DNA of 64,000 nucleotides from contig PAAX01000026.1 in NCBI GenBank assembly GCA_002698995.1, positions 186,001 through 250,000 on the forward strand, given 5' to 3'. Made by a program: the position numbers and the translations under genes. Position 1 is the stretch's first letter. The number at the start of each line of letters is the position of its first letter. The notes below the pieces were generated by a model. It had not been told where the DNA came from, did no database searches, and was given only the letters and a program-made list of their open reading frames with translations. Below are positions 33,695-41,435 of the stretch, one piece after another. Origin of the DNA: Ignavibacteriota bacterium. GTDB lineage: Bacteria > Bacteroidota > Ignavibacteria > Ignavibacteriales > Melioribacteraceae.

Positions 33695-35029
33695 TTAAAA
33701 ACTAAAAGGATAAATAAATGAAACTCTCGGTTCAATTCTCTTCTGAGGTTCATAGCCGATGATGTTATCATCATTATCTCTTAGTGGGGTAAATGTCCAA
33801 TTATAAACCATTGATACAAGAATGTATTTCATGGGTTTATAACCTAACTCAAAAAACAAATATGATCTATCATCAAGAGTAAACAAATCTTTTTCATCTT
33901 GAATATTAATTTTATCATATCCCGCTCTCGCAAGAAATGGAGCTTCTTCAGGTGCAACTTCACTTGCTAAATGAAGGATACCGCTCTTTGGATAATCATC
34001 CAATCTTTGATAACTGCCAATAATATCAAACAATCCAAGGACATCAACATACAACTCGCCATAGAAACCATTTCCAACAGACTGGAGATTTTGCAGTGTT
34101 TGAATTTTACTTGTTACATTTCCGCTAACCGGATCATATTTGAATCTTTCAATTTCATAAAGTGAATTAAAGTAAGATGGAATATAATTATCACCATTAA
34201 ATCTACGTTCAAGTTTGAAGTTAACATCAACCAAACCGAGTCCCTTAAATCTAGAGATAAATCCTAATGCCGTACCGCTTCCAAAATCAATAATTTTATT
34301 TACATCAAAATATAAATCTAAATTAAACATAGAAGTATTTACGATCGGAATGCCTATATCAAAACCGATGATATTGAGTGACCCTAAATCATTTGTTGAT
34401 TGAAACTCACCATTTGGATTTATGAATCCGGAAGTAACGCCAGTATTTTTATTAAAATCGGTTACAAATGTAGCACCGACTTCTATACTTCCTAAAACTG
34501 GAACTGATCTTAAATCGGTAAACTGTAAAGGTCTGGTATAACCGCGCAGACCAAAAATTCCAGCTTCACCAAAGCTTCCGTATACCGATTCGACTCCAAA
34601 AGTATTAAAATCGATGTCAAACTCCAGACCAATTTTTCTAGAGTCGAAACTTGCTCTGTTATTGTACATGTAAAGAATTGTACCATGCCCAAGAGAAGCA
34701 TAATCCAAAGCACCTAATCTTACGTATAAAGGATCATTTTTCTGACCATATCTTACGTAACGAATAATACTTGCGTAATCTGAAAACTCATTAAAATTTT
34801 CAGTTCTTAATTTTCCGTTTGAATCAAAATCGAGGTTGAGATCGAGTCCAACACCAAAATTTGCAAAAGCAACTTCGGGATTTAATCTAAATGTATAATG
34901 GGGCTGACCATCAATCCAAGTCATACCCAATCCCCCGCCTAAATTTCCTTGATTAGGAAGAAGGTTTGGATTGTACTGAGTAAATAGGATCGAAGTAAAT
35001 AATAGAAATGATAAAATATATCTGCGCAC
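33695..35029 (-). CDS. Predicted outer-membrane beta-barrel protein
   Basis: A 444-residue exported protein. Signal peptide about 1-18 (ending LFTQ). The mature sequence alternates hydrophobic and polar residues with many aromatic strand ends (for example RLGALDYASLGHG, FNLDLYFDV) and ends in IYPFSF, a terminal Phe typical of Bam-inserted barrels. Exact family not recognised. The start is GTG 35029 with GGAG five bases upstream; the nearby ATG at 35040 is out of frame. It lies 50 bases after the T9SS gene that precedes it on the minus strand. Confidence 0.8.
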   Translation of the reverse strand: MRRYILSFLLFTSILFTQYNPNLLPNQGNLGGGLGMTWIDGQPHYTFRLNPEVAFANFGVGLDLNLDFDSNGKLRTENFNEFSDYASIIRYVRYGQKNDPLYVRLGALDYASLGHGTILYMYNNRASFDSRKIGLEFDIDFNTFGVESVYGSFGEAGIFGLRGYTRPLQFTDLRSVPVLGSIEVGATFVTDFNKNTGVTSGFINPNGEFQSTNDLGSLNIIGFDIGIPIVNTSMFNLDLYFDVNKIIDFGSGTALGFISRFKGLGLVDVNFKLERRFNGDNYIPSYFNSLYEIERFKYDPVSGNVTSKIQTLQNLQSVGNGFYGELYVDVLGLFDIIGSYQRLDDYPKSGILHLASEVAPEEAPFLARAGYDKINIQDEKDLFTLDDRSYLFFELGYKPMKYILVSMVYNWTFTPLRDNDDNIIGYEPQKRIEPRVSFIYPFSF

Positions 35030-35079
35030 AACAACTCCATTTTTTGTTTAGCGCAAATATAAAGATTTAAGAGGTAAGA

Positions 35080-35859
35080 TTATTTGATGAGGTTCATTTT
35101 TTTAGTAATTGATTTATTTCCATAAGTCAGTTTGTAGAAATAAATTCCGCTTGAGAGACCTTCACCATTAAAAGTAATTTCATAAGTACCGGGAGATTTT
35201 TGTTCATTTACCAGAGTGCGGATTTCTTTACCAAGAATATCGTAAACTTTTAGAGTTACAATCACACCGTCATTACGAGATGTAGTAGAAGCAATTTGTA
35301 ATTCATTAGATTGCCACGTCGCATCGCCTGAAGTCGAGCTCCTCGCAATGACACTATTTTTTGAAATTGTGTATCTAATTTTTGTAGTCGGATTTCCCGA
35401 AGGAATGGCTTCGCCATAAGGATTTGGGTAATTCTGACTTAATGAAAATTCTATAGGAATATTATCTTCAAGTTCTACAGAAGTAATTGATATAGAGAAA
35501 GTAATTACTTCTGAATACTCTAATTTACCGTCGTTATCAATCTGCTGAAGTCGATAATAGTAAGTGTTAGATTCTACAATTGTTGTATCAGTAAAATTAT
35601 AATCCTTGGGAGAAAATGAAGTACCATGACCAAAAACAAAACCAATTACATCCCAATTAAGTGAATCAACAGACCGCTGGATATTAAAACCAAAATTATT
35701 AATTTCAGTCGCAGTTCCCCAAAAAAGTTGAATTGTATTTCCTTCAATATTACCGTTAAAATAAACAAGTTCAACCGGTAACGTATCATTTGGCTTTTGG
35801 GCTATTAGGTTGATAATAAATAAAGTATTTAACAAAAAGAATACTATTCTAAATTTCAT
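35080..35859 (-). CDS. T9SS sorting-domain protein carrying two repeat insertions
   Basis: A 259-residue secreted protein. Signal peptide about 1-21 (ending LIAQ), then a fibronectin-type segment (ELVYFNGNIEGNTIQLFWGT and YYRLQQIDNDGKLEYSE in parts), then a T9SS type A domain from about 140. The sorting domain is interrupted twice, both in frame: the NPFNP motif reads NPYGEAIPSGNPTT, and 28 extra residues (170-197) sit between YTISKNS and GVIVTLKVYD. The second insert is an 84-bp palindromic DNA repeat. The end (SSGIYFYKLTYGNKSITKKMNLIK, in parts) is normal, so the domain may still work. ATG 35859 is chosen over a TTG nine bases earlier. The N-terminal part is short for T9SS cargo; its function is unknown. 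Confidence 0.83.
   Translation of the reverse strand: MKFRIVFFLLNTLFIINLIAQKPNDTLPVELVYFNGNIEGNTIQLFWGTATEINNFGFNIQRSVDSLNWDVIGFVFGHGTSFSPKDYNFTDTTIVESNTYYYRLQQIDNDGKLEYSEVITFSISITSVELEDNIPIEFSLSQNYPNPYGEAIPSGNPTTKIRYTISKNSVIARSSTSGDATWQSNELQIASTTSRNDGVIVTLKVYDILGKEIRTLVNEQKSPGTYEITFNGEGLSSGIYFYKLTYGNKSITKKMNLIK
35269..35352. repeat. 84-bp palindromic repeat inserted in frame in a coding region
   Basis: Terminal inverted repeats GTCATTACGAG (35269-35279) and CTCGCAATGAC (35342-35352) match at 10 of 11 positions. Inside lie GATTGCCACGTCGC and GAAGCAATTTG, the same word set as the GTCATTGCGAGGAGC...GTGGCAATCT intergenic repeats known from many bacterial genomes. The length is a multiple of three and the element begins exactly on a codon boundary, so the host reading frame is kept. 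Confidence 0.8.
35394..35417. repeat. Twin mini-hairpin insertion in the NPFNP motif
   Basis: TTCC-CGAA-GGAA (35394-35405) and ATGGC-TTC-GCCAT (35405-35417) are two adjacent perfect small hairpins; read on the coding strand the first has a TTCG loop. They make up the 24 bases that expand the T9SS motif from NPFNPTT to NPYGEAIPSGNPTT. Confidence 0.6.
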
Positions 35860-35997
35860 TTTTAACAACTTTTTTTGGTGTTTGATTTTTTTTTCGCTTC
35901 TTTTAAACTTATTAAAAGCATGTTTCAGTATAAATTAAGTATAGCTTAAGGGCTCTTTCCGTATAAGTACATACCTTTTAATTGGGTTTGAAATGCT

Positions 35998-36039
35998 TTT
36001 CAAATGCCTTTCAAATGGGTTTCAAATGCCTTTCAAATC
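35998..36039. repeat. Four 11-bp iterons
   Basis: TTTCAAATG recurs at 35998, 36009, 36020 and (as TTTCAAATC) 36031, exactly 11 bases apart, or about one helical turn each. The array is in the 254-base gap between the C25 peptidase stop and the 35859 start, 139 bases upstream of the latter, so it could be a regulatory site for that gene. The rest of the gap is A+T-rich without other structure. Confidence 0.6.
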
Positions 36040-36113
36040 GTATTCATGAACTATCTTTGTACTGTTTAAGAATCTTTTTCCTGATACTGAAACTCTGATA
36101 AATTCTTAAATGC

Positions 36114-39100
36114 TTATCTTACAATTGCCATTTTTTGAGTTTCGGAAATTGTTTCTTCAGAATCTTTCAAAGTAACTTTGTAAAGATAAGTACCATTTGC
36201 AACCGGATCACCATCTTCATCTTTACAATCCCAATAAATTTTATTGAAGTTAAGTTTCAAATCGGCTGTAGTAAGATTTAATTTTTTGATTAATCTACCG
36301 GCAATAGTATAGACCTTAATTTCTAGTTCATCTGGAACCTTGGTAAGCATAAAAGTAAAATAAGTATCGTTATTTGTCGGATTAGGATAAGTATAAACAT
36401 CCATTAATCTAAATTCATCGGAAACAATAAAGTTTGCTGTATAACCGTCAGTTACTTCAAGGTTACCGATAAGATTTCTTCCTCTTACAGCAATATTATA
36501 ATTACCGGATTCAAGCACCGGTTTATAAGAATAGATAATTTTTCGGTTGATAGTATCAAATTCCTTAAGACTCATTTCCCCGTTATGAATTCTGATATTG
36601 TTCAAGAAAAGATTTACTTCTGAAGTATCGGAATAATTGTAGCCTAGATTATAATCTAATTCAATATCAATTTCGGGAGTTGGAGAAACGTAATCACCGT
36701 CAAAGATTTGATTACCATCAAATTTGACTATCACCTTTGCTGAATTAACTGAAACGGAGGTATCCTTTACAACTTTAAAAGGAATTCTGTAGAAGTTATT
36801 ATCCTCAAAGAACTCACGGACATTATTCTCAGAATCAATAGAGATATTAAAGGCAAGTTCACCCGTTCCATCTTCAATCTTAGGGATATAATCGACTGAG
36901 AACTGTTTTCTATCCATTGAATCAATAAGAGCAATTTTCTGATCGAATAGAATCCGTTTTGAATTATCAGCTTTCTGAAGTTCAACTTTCACCTTAAAAT
37001 TCTGTGCGGGAGACTCACCGACATTATAAACCATAAAGTTGAGTTTGTTATTCTCCCCTTGCGTAATTGAATCGCGCTCAACAGAAACAACTTGGTAATT
37101 AATTGCAAGTTCGGCATCATCGGTATAATCAACACCTAGTGAATAAAGCTCGGGTGAAGTTCCGTCATCAGCGGAATTAAGTTCAGCTTTAATTTTGAGA
37201 TATGGATACTGCTCAGCATTAATAAAAGATAAATCGGCAACCCCATTATTAAGAGTTAGTGTGCTCAAAGTATCTGCAGAATCTGTCTCGGTTAAAGCAA
37301 TAGGTATATAATTAATTGAAGAGTTAGAGAAGGTACTGTCGCTTACAACCAGTTTATCCCATTTGGTTGTAGGACCTATTTTGGTGGTGGTTAGGGAGCC
37401 ATTAAAGACCGGGATTTCATATTTTTTTGATAAGAATATCGAGCCATCATAAACCCCCTTGACTTGTTCAATGGCTTGCTCTGGAGTTCCCCCTTTATAA
37501 CCAATGATTGCCCAAGAACCACGGAATACTAGACTATCAATTTTTGTGCTTCCAAGTGTTTTTATCGCTGTTCTTAGTCTAGCTATCAATCTATGTTGTC
37601 CATCATCAGCAACCCCCATCACAACTAATTTCCCTTGTTCTATAGATTCAATTTGTGCCGCTAAAGCATTTGCATTTTCAGTATTATTGAATAATTGATA
37701 CCAATTACTAGACTCAACTTCTAAAGTATTAGGATCAAATACAACTATGCCCATTCCAGCAAAAAATGAATTCGACAATAGGTTGATTCCGTTTTTAGCA
37801 ATTACACAAGTTGCTCCAGCATTCCAACCAGCTGAAAGAACAGATATTTCAGTAGAATCTTTTCCTAGTTTTATTAATTGATTAGAAAAGGCAACATTCG
37901 ATTTGGTTTGATTATATATTGAAACAGAATCTGATATGAAGAATTTATTGCCGGAAATATTACTAAATGATCTTACTATTCCTGTTTGATTACTGTTATT
38001 ATCTTTGAATTTATACCAATATCTAGACTGATCATTATTAGTAAAATTGAATTTCGAAATAACAGTATCTAATTCGAGGTTGTATTCATCAAAGGATGTA
38101 AAATCTTCGTCCTTTGATAATTGAATTGAAAGATTAGGAGCAATTTCAGAACTTAAAACCGGATTCAAAAAGTTAATCGTTTCTAATCTTGGGTTTTCAA
38201 AATTGTATCTTACAAAATCTTTTACTGAATTTGAGTAAACATTGAAATTGAATTCCACATTGTTATCATTCTCATAAATTTCTTCAATCTCATTTTCAGT
38301 ATCCAATTGGATTAACAATTTATGCTGTCCAGCAAGATTTTTAATATTTACTTTAATTAACAAAGTATCGGAATTATCCGGTAACTGCTTTACTAAAGCC
38401 ACAGAATCTAAAAAATTATCTTGATAAAAATGGCTAATATTCATTTTATATGATTTGTTAAATGATAATCCTAAATTTTTTACTATAACTCTTACTTCTG
38501 CAGAATCTAATTGATCAGTAATTTCAGAATTCAACAAAGTAATTTCATTTCCATTAATAGACAAGTTTGGTTTCTGTGGTACTTTTAACTTAACTGAAGG
38601 ATCACCTAGGAGAACGTTTGAGTTGACAAAAACTTTATTTACCGATGATGAGCCATAATTAGTTAATAACTCATACTTCACACTTAAATGTGCTTCGCCG
38701 ACTGTTAAAGCGGAATCGGATAATATATTCTTATAAAATAAATAAGGAACCGTTGTTGCAGTTGATAAAAATCCAAGCGAAGAATTGCCAACATAACCAA
38801 TTGCCTGCCCATCAGCATCAAGTAAAAATCTTTCACCAAAGCAAATAATATCATATTCACCAAATTTATTAGTAGAACAACCAAAATCTGTTATTAAAGG
38901 ATTTCTATTTACTGAATTCTTTAACTGTTCAACATTATTAATACTATTATCCCAAGTTGCTGTACCGCTGTGTCCCAGATAAGAGATGAAAACACTGCCG
39001 TCACTTATAGCCTTTGAAATCACATCTTCAGAAAAAGGTCCAAAATCAGTCTGAGGAGACGAAGTTTTATAAAAATGATGATAATTCCCAGCAATTGGTT

Positions 39101-41435
39101 TAGGAGCAACTAATTCACTTACGACCTTATCATTAGCGAATTTTAATATTGAAAGTTCACTTGGATTTGATCCATTACCGCTTGAGAAAAACAAAAACTT
39201 CTTATTCCATTCGTTAAACTGAGCTTCATTATTATTTTTAATCTTTTCAAAGTAATGAGAAAATTGTTCTTTATCTAAAAATGGAATCCTGCCGACTATC
39301 ATTTGTGGATAAACTGAATTATTCCATTGTACATACCAATAGTCACTTAAAGGATTTCCAAAACTAGGGACAATATTCTGGCTCAGTTTAACATTATTGT
39401 GATTTGCCAGATAATCTTTGTAATCATAACTAGCATCACCAAATAATGTTAGATAAGTCGGTTTATCACCTTCAGCATTATTAAAATAAATTTCTAAAAA
39501 AAGTTTTATAGATTCAGGAGTTGGATACCCATAACCAAATTCATTATAAATATCTTCGACAAAAAATAGTTTAGTAGTAAAAGCATTATAGCTTGACAAA
39601 TATTCTAAATACTCATTTACTTCATTCTGAAACTGATAACTTGTTAAAGCAATATAATCAGATTGACTATTTTCATTTCTTAGATTGTTAAAGTCAACTT
39701 TTCGGGCATTGGAAGGTTTGAGCAGTTGATTTGTTTCAAAGATAGAATAACTTTTATCTGCATCTAATGTATCACTAAATATTAGATCGTTCTCTGTAAA
39801 GCTATAATTACTAATTAATTTTGGATTATCTCCGTTTCTGTAAATTATATATTCCAAGTTAGGATTAGCACCATTAAAAGTGAAGTTATATACTCCATTG
39901 GTCAGTGACGAATCAACCGTGAAATTTAGTTTACCATTTGCAATACTTAATATTTTTGGATACTCAACTTCATACCAATCAAGTGCAAAGGAATTTGGAA
40001 TTGTACCATTATTTTTATTGCTAACTACGAATTTGTTATTTCCATTAACCAACAAGTCAGAATTAAATGAACCTTCTAGAATGACCTGATCAAATCTATT
40101 TACATTTTCGAAATCAATTGTATCATTCAGAAATAATAATGAAATTTGATGAGCATTATTGACAATATTTGAACCACCACTTACAAATTTAGCAGAAATC
40201 TTTACTGGCTTATTATTATACTTTTCAGAAATCGTGAAGTTATAATTTACAGGAGAAGTAAAGAGCCAATTCCAATAAAAGGTCTTGTTTTTATTCCAAT
40301 TAGATAACTGATTCGAGACTTCGTCATTATTGAGATTCTGATACATTGTATTAGTTTCATAATGATCTTTTTTAATAAAATAATCGATGATGTTATTACT
40401 TGCGGCAAATGAAGAATCTTTTCTAATTCTATTTCCATTTAGATTATCTATAGTAAGGAAATAGTAAGACGTATCGCTGTATCTATTCATATACTCATTA
40501 TACTCTTGATTACTTTGATTGACTATTCTATAGTTTTCCTTTGAATAGTTCTTTTGTCCATAAAATTCTATATAGTCCCCTTCATTAAAAACGTTGTCTT
40601 CTTGTCCAGATACATAAATAGGAATCTCTATTCCGGATTCATATAGTTTAATTTTTTGTGGATCGATGCCATTAAAATTTAGACCAATTCCAGATAGATA
40701 GTCATAATCAAGCCTATAAATTCCATCTTCTATAATACTAAGTTTATAATATGGGTTATTAAAATTAATCCAATCCTGATTTGAATCAGAAATAACTTTA
40801 TTCGGTTTTGATCTAAATTGTTCGGCGATCTGCCAATTTGCAAAAAGATCTTTGAGGTTTTCATCAAATATTGACTTAATTTGTAATGGAGAATTATCTT
40901 GAAGAATTAATTGCTTATTCATCTTGACTGCAATTTCAATTTGATCAATCTCCTGTATTGATAAGGTTGTTGGATTAAATCTATGTGTATTGATCGGTAT
41001 TTCAGCACAATAAAAATCCCTCAACCAAAAATATTTAATTTCATCTATTATATTTTTAGTTGAGGAAAGATTAGGCAAATGGACATTTTCGTAAAAATAA
41101 TTAATACCTTCATCAGACTTTTTAACTATTGGATTATTTATGGGAATAGTATTTGAATGAATTATTTCATTTTTCGATTTTAATTCAGCATAAATAGTAG
41201 AATTCGGTGGAATGGCAATAATTATACTCTTTTTTGGAAGTTGATAATTAGTTTGGTTATCTGGATCAGCATATTCGAAATAGTTTCTGTAATTGACATT
41301 CTCAGCTGTTGAATCAATATATGAAGACGATTCAAAATTAATCTTTAAAGAAAAAGAATTACTTGATACGTTTTCAATGGTCTGTGCAGAAAGCAAAGTA
41401 ATTAGATACACATATGGGAATAGAAATTTTTTCAT
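36114..41435 (-). CDS. Giant C25 (gingipain-like) peptidase with CARDB, ILEI/FAM3-like and sorting domains
   Basis: A 1773-residue secreted protein. Signal peptide about 1-18 (LLSAQ). The N-terminal 600 residues are beta-rich and contain the PYYKLSIIEDGIYRLDYDYL-type segment seen in large C25 proteins. The C25 domain (about 620-940) has LTLFGDASYDYKD, catalytic H822 in YLGHSGTATW and C853 in DFGCSTNKFGEYD. CARDB-like Ig domains follow (about 950-1065 and 1430-1560). Residues about 1190-1310 match the ILEI/PANDER fold of FAM3 proteins: GIVVFDPNTLEVES, VVMGVADDG, then LVFRGSWAIIGYKGG. The end is a FlgD/T9SS-type domain (YPNPTNND, NGTYLYKV). It could be a PorU-like sortase, but PorU is shorter and lacks such a tail, so a secreted protease or adhesin is more likely. 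It starts 11 bases after the wecG-type pseudogene. Confidence 0.85.
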   Translation of the reverse strand: MKKFLFPYVYLITLLSAQTIENVSSNSFSLKINFESSSYIDSTAENVNYRNYFEYADPDNQTNYQLPKKSIIIAIPPNSTIYAELKSKNEIIHSNTIPINNPIVKKSDEGINYFYENVHLPNLSSTKNIIDEIKYFWLRDFYCAEIPINTHRFNPTTLSIQEIDQIEIAVKMNKQLILQDNSPLQIKSIFDENLKDLFANWQIAEQFRSKPNKVISDSNQDWINFNNPYYKLSIIEDGIYRLDYDYLSGIGLNFNGIDPQKIKLYESGIEIPIYVSGQEDNVFNEGDYIEFYGQKNYSKENYRIVNQSNQEYNEYMNRYSDTSYYFLTIDNLNGNRIRKDSSFAASNNIIDYFIKKDHYETNTMYQNLNNDEVSNQLSNWNKNKTFYWNWLFTSPVNYNFTISEKYNNKPVKISAKFVSGGSNIVNNAHQISLLFLNDTIDFENVNRFDQVILEGSFNSDLLVNGNNKFVVSNKNNGTIPNSFALDWYEVEYPKILSIANGKLNFTVDSSLTNGVYNFTFNGANPNLEYIIYRNGDNPKLISNYSFTENDLIFSDTLDADKSYSIFETNQLLKPSNARKVDFNNLRNENSQSDYIALTSYQFQNEVNEYLEYLSSYNAFTTKLFFVEDIYNEFGYGYPTPESIKLFLEIYFNNAEGDKPTYLTLFGDASYDYKDYLANHNNVKLSQNIVPSFGNPLSDYWYVQWNNSVYPQMIVGRIPFLDKEQFSHYFEKIKNNNEAQFNEWNKKFLFFSSGNGSNPSELSILKFANDKVVSELVAPKPIAGNYHHFYKTSSPQTDFGPFSEDVISKAISDGSVFISYLGHSGTATWDNSINNVEQLKNSVNRNPLITDFGCSTNKFGEYDIICFGERFLLDADGQAIGYVGNSSLGFLSTATTVPYLFYKNILSDSALTVGEAHLSVKYELLTNYGSSSVNKVFVNSNVLLGDPSVKLKVPQKPNLSINGNEITLLNSEITDQLDSAEVRVIVKNLGLSFNKSYKMNISHFYQDNFLDSVALVKQLPDNSDTLLIKVNIKNLAGQHKLLIQLDTENEIEEIYENDNNVEFNFNVYSNSVKDFVRYNFENPRLETINFLNPVLSSEIAPNLSIQLSKDEDFTSFDEYNLELDTVISKFNFTNNDQSRYWYKFKDNNSNQTGIVRSFSNISGNKFFISDSVSIYNQTKSNVAFSNQLIKLGKDSTEISVLSAGWNAGATCVIAKNGINLLSNSFFAGMGIVVFDPNTLEVESSNWYQLFNNTENANALAAQIESIEQGKLVVMGVADDGQHRLIARLRTAIKTLGSTKIDSLVFRGSWAIIGYKGGTPEQAIEQVKGVYDGSIFLSKKYEIPVFNGSLTTTKIGPTTKWDKLVVSDSTFSNSSINYIPIALTETDSADTLSTLTLNNGVADLSFINAEQYPYLKIKAELNSADDGTSPELYSLGVDYTDDAELAINYQVVSVERDSITQGENNKLNFMVYNVGESPAQNFKVKVELQKADNSKRILFDQKIALIDSMDRKQFSVDYIPKIEDGTGELAFNISIDSENNVREFFEDNNFYRIPFKVVKDTSVSVNSAKVIVKFDGNQIFDGDYVSPTPEIDIELDYNLGYNYSDTSEVNLFLNNIRIHNGEMSLKEFDTINRKIIYSYKPVLESGNYNIAVRGRNLIGNLEVTDGYTANFIVSDEFRLMDVYTYPNPTNNDTYFTFMLTKVPDELEIKVYTIAGRLIKKLNLTTADLKLNFNKIYWDCKDEDGDPVANGTYLYKVTLKDSEETISETQKMAIVR

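Follow-up and report, generated by a model that had tools for sequence, protein, structure and literature searches.

The loop between strands 1 and 2 of the T9SS type-A sorting domain is a recurrent place of unrelated palindromic repeats, and this is a stronger finding than the single copy in the window, by which we mean the whole analysed stretch of 64,000 nucleotides. The window copy, an 84-bp block at 35269-35352, belongs to a dispersed family of structured half-units, is read in frame within such a domain, and faces an empty site in two relatives. The same loop and the same phase are used across genera, and unrelated repeat families share this one site.

The host gene lies on the minus strand at 35080-35868, where a TTG start at 35868 gives 262 aa and an ATG at 35859 gives 259 aa. 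Its tail was matched above curated cut-offs by TIGR04183 (E 5.1e-9, 36 bits, cut-off 23) and PF18962 (E 1.1e-7, 32.4 bits, cut-off 27), which places a T9SS type-A sorting domain at its C-terminus, as the sequence-only reading had proposed. According to the profile matches and an AlphaFold2 model, the domain flanks the insert on both sides (QNYPNPY...KKMNLIK, 35083-35436, minus strand). Read on the minus strand, the block runs GTCATTGCGAG...CTCGTAATGAC; its terminal inverted arms, GTCATTACGAG at 35269-35279 and CTCGCAATGAC at 35342-35352 (minus strand GTCATTGCGAG), match at 10 of 11 positions and are preceded by C and T, giving CGTC and TGTC, respectively. The block starts at codon 170, counted from the ATG at 35859, and adds in frame, on the minus strand, 28 residues (VIARSSTSGDATWQSNELQIASTTSRND, V-I-A-R...S-R-N-D) between YTISKNS and GVIVTLKVYD with no stop codon; the description made of it beforehand was thus borne out on the DNA and on its translation. 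In the flanks read, no target-site duplication was evident by eye.

The domain was modelled from 42 related sequences with a mean pLDDT of 77.7 and a pTM of 0.66. Strands 35-42 and 76-83 enclose the insert, residues 47-74 of the modelled piece, which opens with a short helix (44-50); pLDDT block means across the insert are 73, 57, 60 and 81, the first strand falls in ten-residue blocks of 80 and 73, and from residue 81 on the values are 87-97. A Foldseek search of the PDB gave no match at E 0.001, and its weak matches include the C-terminal domain of mirolase (8qb1, rank 4) and PorZ (5m11, rank 23). A second insert of 7 residues, GEAIPSG, lies at 35395-35415 (minus strand) between PNPY and NPTT, and its DNA appears by eye as two small palindromes. 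When it was tried as a third dispersed repeat, its DNA turned up once in the genome with up to three mismatches allowed; a look-alike at the protein level, SEAIPNG, is found at C28:194832. Rfam gave no match up to E 1 on 34900-36100, and in plasmid records 10 had a match up to E 1, none over 80% of the query, with 31 bases each at E 1 in the five matches listed. The neighbour of the insert-bearing gene, at 36114-41435, encodes a 1773-aa protein with Peptidase_C25, ILEI, CARDB and FlgD_ig, which we take to be probably the T9SS sortase PorU.

Within its own genome (4.23 Mb, 36 contigs) the 84-bp unit is single-copy, the next BLASTN place being 21 bp at E 0.018. The genome search returned the block itself and short partial matches, and a mobile unit in near-identical 84-bp copies was therefore rejected. 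Taken singly, the window copy is no better than chance: its DNA fold has a z of -0.98, 26 of 200 codon-shuffled versions of the loop have an inverted repeat at least as good, and the arm word with 2 mismatches is found 8 times in the 64-kb window against 7.9 expected. The exact arm word GTCATTGCGAG, on the other hand, occurs 5 times in the genome and its reversed pattern once, and the half-unit GATTNCN{5,35}TCGNAATGAC has 34 genome matches with 1 in the reversed-pattern control. The two free bases of this pattern are complementary in all 34 (21 T/A and 13 G/C, among 26 distinct sequences). In the window, the better-kept half-unit of the block, GATTGCC...CTCGCAATGAC at 35309-35352 on the plus strand, is a member of this family by the same pattern. 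The earlier proposal of a mobile, protein-tolerated repeat thus stands as far as membership of a dispersed palindromic family, the in-frame position and the T9SS domain are concerned; with no near-identical 84-bp copy, activity of the window copy is not established. The genome search it had suggested likewise divides, with the whole unit found only once and its half-units many times.

By our reading the 34 matches make 32 places, and the count of coding against intergenic copies gave 5 in open frames (4 sorting-domain loops and one other, L173) and 27 in non-coding DNA. The scoring of open frames covered the 30 matches that had loci, after which L172 and L173 were inspected; the four matches outside this scoring comprise three read as short stretches and C36:48133, whose core is identical to that of the copies on C1, C5, C7 and C18. 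The sorting-domain loops amount to 0.12% of the genome, and finding 4 of 32 places in them would have a chance of 7e-8 if the places were independent. At L172 the half-unit precedes the likely start of a frame taken for pheS. At L173 (C26:22630) it is translated in frame (VISNPALAGEKS) as part of a 649-aa frame other than a sorting domain; half-units in frame outside sorting domains therefore exist, and are rare in the own genome. A fifth sorting-domain copy, at C24:60990, has decayed beyond the half-unit pattern and is still in frame without a palindrome, and a class-A copy on C28 lies in a fragment-like frame of 110 aa.

Other arrangements of the family were noticed in passing. Five GTCATT-class half-units lie within about 600 bp at C29:9039-9653 (L178-L182), with GTCATTCCGG...CCGGAATCTC variants alongside. 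Near-identical copies of a small element are found elsewhere in the own genome (L154-L157, L163, L164, L168), most of them with GGGGCTGTCTCAAA-like ends; it contains a GTCATTGCGAAGCG(G/A) half-unit and is apparently a miniature element.

The loop itself was surveyed across the genome with TIGR04183, which gave at least 140 matches (150 of 166 candidates scored); 140 were read and 137 parsed. In 106 of the 137 parsed domains, strand 2 follows the PNP motif at a spacing of 23 residues, and in 23 loops the spacing is 28 or more. These long loops include five GTCATT-class inserts and about ten of an unrelated GTAG class, the latter assigned by reading from a GTAG start or a worn form of it; this sharing of one site had been missed by the sequence-only reading. 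The GTAG-class inserts read VETLRATSQMQ and near forms in six cases, and also VGTTHELSTQ, VVSTHELSV, VEKGHAPSLQ and VGDANFASPT, with the CTAC end mostly lost. An inverted-repeat score of at least 8 was reached by 13 of the 23 long loops versus 1 of the 106 usual ones, and 12 of 23 versus 5 of 106 beat 95% of their codon shuffles. Long loops without a palindrome also occur, e.g. C15:135684 and C21:33518, and a repeat therefore does not account for all of the long loops.

A similar separation was seen beyond this genome. Contigs of titled genomes were scanned with a profile made from the GTCATT-class domain alignment, and the best 80 of at least 583 stretches were kept; 51 of these 80 are titled Ignavibacteria, Melioribacteraceae or Stygiobacter. 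Of the 79 loops that could be parsed, 41 exceed the usual length by at least 5 residues (net extension +5 to +34 residues); an inverted-repeat score of at least 8 was found in 20 of these 41 and in 0 of the other 38, and 22 of 41 versus 5 of 38 beat 95% of codon shuffles, all these fractions describing the best 80 and not a population, as the ranking favours likeness to the insert-bearing queries. By eye, many of the long loops could be assigned to one of several families without relation to each other: GTCATT(T/G)CGA, GTCACCCTGAGC...GAAGGGTCTC, GTCACTCTTCGACAGGCTCAGAGTGAC, GTAG...CTAC types, CCCCTTTA...AAAGGGG and a AGGGTGTCCGAAGGACGGGTGAGGG type. One loop titled Ignavibacteria (L248) has the same sequence as L205 of G011. 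In the loop of L294, repeats of an ATSQR unit come after a worn palindrome (VQTLHATSQRATSQRATSQR), and the insert seems to have grown by tandem duplication.

The empty site was found by synteny. The marker, the neighbour gene at 33698-35029, is present in 47 of 58 genomes including the own one, none of the same genus, and among 29 relatives with loci a similar cargo protein lies just upstream in two (L135 of G042 and L137 of G034), a number that may be too low, as only the longest frame within 1500 bases was considered. At the corresponding place G042 reads NYPNPFNPSTKISFEISVTSQVQLKIFD and G034 reads NYPNPFNPSTIISWQLPANGNVSLKIYD, both without the 28 residues and without the 7-residue insert, so that the suggested comparison with homologues lacking the insert supports an insertion.

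GTCATT-class inserts also occur in other genomes of the order. A 37-aa query matched in 4 of 164 genomes, namely the own one (2), G011 (11), G094 (1) and G145 (1), where G011 may have fewer than 11 genes, as one match has a stop and several are at contig ends. G011 has 61 TIGR04183 matches in all. Loop and phase in these three relatives are as in the own genome, the inserts of G011 and G094 beginning a few residues earlier (QFVIPS..., RFVIPN...). A 26-aa GTAG query matched in 9 of the 164 genomes, own one included, with 13 matches in the 8 others; by eye, 11 are clear palindromes, L214 is worn and L215 has no palindrome. Stems vary, and some recur between genera: G042 shares GTTGC... with the own genome and GGGATATATCCC with G030. 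Both protein queries were strict, and all these genome and match counts are therefore minimums.

In order to avoid selection by the sorting domain, a census was started from DNA palindromes. The pattern GTAG[AG]GAC...GTC[CT]CTAC was found 34 times per strand in the own genome, 32 once nested matches were removed, with 0 in the control, whereas GTAGAGAC...GTCTCTAC, sought in seven relatives chosen for having loop inserts, gave 68 in six of them (controls 0) and none in G011. The GTAG end, the palindromic stem and the dispersal are those of GTAG-tagged REPs. Of the resulting 100 palindromes in 7 genomes, 32 lie in the strand 1-2 loop (20 in G042, 8 in G030, 2 each in G001 and G137, none in the own genome), 2 in that domain's loop ahead of SGVYFY, 4 in the domain preceding the sorting domain (3 by script and L341 by eye) and 9 in Y1 transposase frames; 15 are in frames unconfirmed as genes, being short or lying before a likely start, and 38 are in no frame of at least 90 aa, one of which (L364 of G137) is flanked by sorting-domain sequence and is possibly a broken copy. 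Thus, the 47 gene-placed palindromes divide into 32 in the strand 1-2 loop, 9 in Y1 transposases and 6 in two other loops of sorting-domain proteins. G042, which supplies 20 of the 32 loop copies, has a completeness of 88% and a contamination of 8%. Of the three phases, two are open and the third contains a TAG stop; the phase beginning VET is used by 32 of 32 loop inserts, while transposase copies use it in 6 cases and the other in 3.

In the own genome, palindromes reading VGTTHELSLQ and VGTSRDLSLQ stand in frame in four paralogues (L326, L333, L334 and L341), in the domain ahead of the sorting one, where FE(I/V)(Q/E)R and WE(K/T)(I/V)GFV flank them. The window gene reads IQRSVDSLNWDVIGFV where four own-genome paralogues carry GTAG palindromes before the sorting domain. 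In G042, twelve sorting domains (L381, L383, L385-L388, L393-L396, L399 and L400) share GTAGAGACGTCATATATGACGTCTCTAC.

The GTAG class is associated with Y1 transposase genes: three copies lie in or around the Y1_Tnp match C31:261222-261566, and Y1_Tnp was matched at E 0.01 in 8 of the 9 palindrome-carrying frames, 4 of them above the curated cut-off. At C31:261069-261614 (L340:990-1535) a GTAG palindrome is in frame inside a Y1/IS200-like transposase, and the same is seen in L349, L357, L362, L363, L372, L374, L380 and L390, the nine frames spanning 6 genomes. A HUH-like motif, M(P/S)NHxH, stands shortly before the palindrome in eight of the nine and was unseen in L374. It is likely that the GTAG repeat sits inside its own transposase.

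Taken together, the explanation that we consider probable is that of a decayed dispersed repeat in a permissive loop, with repeated uptake followed by domain copying. On this view, a dispersed palindromic repeat composed of two inverted half-units with TGTC/CGTC ends landed in frame between beta strands 1 and 2 of a T9SS type-A sorting domain, and the block would be a copy of it that has decayed in part. In this phase GTC ATT gives V-I and CGN AAT GAC gives R-N-D with no stop, and the product would be a polar flexible loop that leaves the core intact. Such a loop, present in tens to more than 100 copies per genome, may well be a permissive site into which palindromic repeats unrelated in sequence would have been taken up more than once. 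GTAG repeats plausibly arrive via the Y1/RAYT transposases that carry and adjoin them; inserted copies would then multiply by copying or conversion of sorting domains between cargo genes and decay into ordinary loop sequence. Mobilisation by RAYT and the neutrality of the inserts are what we infer, as is the share of new insertion versus copying.

How much of the pattern is due to new insertion is best judged against the possibility that one or a few ancestral insertions took place and that the inserted loops then spread as sorting domains were duplicated and passed by gene conversion from one cargo gene to another. In G042, 12 of 12 copies of GTCATATATGAC lie in sorting domains, and in G030 8 of 8 copies of the GGGATATATCCC type; this confinement speaks for domain copying, as the 12 domains of G042 carry one 28-mer, the 8 of G030 nearly one, and these stems were unseen outside sorting domains by the pattern used. 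The inserts of G011 likewise form a few clusters with shared right halves, and a sorting-domain tree with too few columns for a count of events, in which the five class-A rows need 5 changes by a two-state count and 4 by a group table, is compatible with single origins. Yet GTCATT, GTAG, GTCACCCTGAGC, GTCACTCTTCGACAGG and CCCCTTTA types, unrelated by eye, share the loop, and some loop stems also stand elsewhere: GGGATATATCCC of G042 is found, besides one sorting domain, within and next to a Y1 transposase, GAGGCATGCCTC of G137 in two sorting domains and a transposase-like frame, and TCGCCGCGGCGA of G001 in one sorting domain and a non-coding place. Moreover, in the groups compared, inserts within a genome are 95-100% identical, a value inflated by a perfect-palindrome pattern that omits decayed copies, whereas the flanking domain DNA averages 78-84% where alignable (the left flank of the G137 pair, at 25%, is unalignable). 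That contrast fits recent insertion into diverged domains, or conversion limited to the insert. As an account of the whole, copying from few origins is possible, though we hold it to be on the unlikely side.

The remaining explanations are weaker. An element recognising a DNA motif in the sorting-domain gene would account for the near-fixed spot, seen in class-A copies as RND, three residues and V, and in most GTAG inserts as IP with none or one residue before the insert. However, the 12-mers to the left of 32 GTAG inserts are of 28 different kinds, varying at third codon positions, and the motif ATNCC, present at 20 of the 32 loop inserts, is missing from 37 of 38 non-coding copies (present in 1); with flanks so varied and ATNCC so patchy, a DNA target motif was rejected. 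Unrelated repeat families would all need that one target, and the second loop of the domain is used as well (2 copies), which makes site-specific transposition very improbable. Selection of the inserts, as a peptide or mRNA hairpin useful for secretion, expression or domain exchange, would agree with the uniform phase of the loop copies beside the mixed phases in transposases. It would also agree with the 12 G042 domains in which the insert supplies part of strand 2 (TSLR-IYNILG); there the end of GTAGAGACGTCATATATGACGTCTCTAC encodes the start of that strand (TSLR/TSLQ before (I/V)YNILG), so the repeat seems part of the fold. Against it, most own-genome domains keep the usual short loop, the inserts differ in length and sequence, the model shows a low-confidence loop, and the decayed copy at C24:60990 persists in frame without its palindrome; we find selection improbable. 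That no real repeat is involved, and a variable loop merely looks palindromic by chance, might be suggested by the window copy, which is not significantly palindromic and has no second 84-bp copy. A chance palindrome is countered by the half-unit census against its control and by the complementarity of the free bases in every match, and further copies from this loop are strong palindromes, so that chance is scarcely credible.

In-frame palindromic repeats have long been debated since the Rickettsia elements, as tolerated junk or as a source of new protein. With several unrelated families in several genera, one loop and empty sister domains, the sorting domain offers replicated comparisons of insertion, decay and reuse, and the loop is a natural test of how genomic repeats become protein. 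The inserts also point out where the T9SS tag is naturally permissive, and for annotators they mean that part of the length variation of sorting domains is repeat DNA. Perhaps the loop is a landing pad that turns repeats into protein, and near-identical palindromes seed the recombination that homogenises the secretion tags of cargo proteins, an idea that we put forward as speculative and rather doubtful.

The literature searched, with most subscription journals outside its scope, gave no report that we recognised of one loop taken by many repeat families, and a search on the arm word gave no paper on repeats, judged by title. Intragenic repeats as such have been described. Di Nocera et al. 2013 (PMC3733652) place intragenic REPs of the GTAG and CGTC classes in varied unrelated proteins at mostly differing sites, recB of two Xanthomonas species being the named exception, and suggest that loops tolerate them; their CGTC-tagged REPs include RPE-4 and RPE-6 of Rickettsia conorii, and Chlorobi and Bacteroidetes are among the phyla. 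Such CGTC-tagged REPs resemble the GTCATT family in having CGTC/TGTC ends, an A-T stem start and inverted unit pairs, and in being dispersed and sometimes intragenic. The window block has CGTC at its 35269 end and TGTC at its 35352 end, and its half-units are dispersed in the genome well above their control. In contrast to the stem of 8-9 bp with a loop of 4-5 bases in CGTC-tagged REPs, the paired core of the half-units is 5 bases (ATTGC/GCAAT, ATTTC/GAAAT) with a variable middle; instead of the mostly CCA tail, CT follows the inner arm in the copies read; and the family recurs within a single protein loop. Judged by tags and A-T start, the block appears closer to CGTC-tagged REPs than to the Rickettsia elements as described.

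GTAG-tagged REPs with RAYT, according to the same study (PMC3733652), share with our GTAG class the GTAG end, the palindromic stem, a position in or beside Y1/IS200-like genes and the occurrence of intragenic copies; the difference is that here 32 of 47 gene-placed copies share a single loop of a single secretion domain. Rickettsia palindromic elements (Ogata et al. 2000, via the review PMC10969869) are in-frame inserts in unrelated genes and resemble the present ones as palindromic repeats read in frame inside proteins, whereas, going by that description, the inserts reported here are shorter and recurrent in one domain loop. PARCELs (PMC2996958) share coding dyad symmetry in membrane- or surface-targeted proteins, and consist of tandem arrays of a 25-residue motif forming the domain itself. 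Intragenic REPs and Rickettsia elements were thus already known; what seems new here, going by the literature searched, is one loop occupied by many repeat families.
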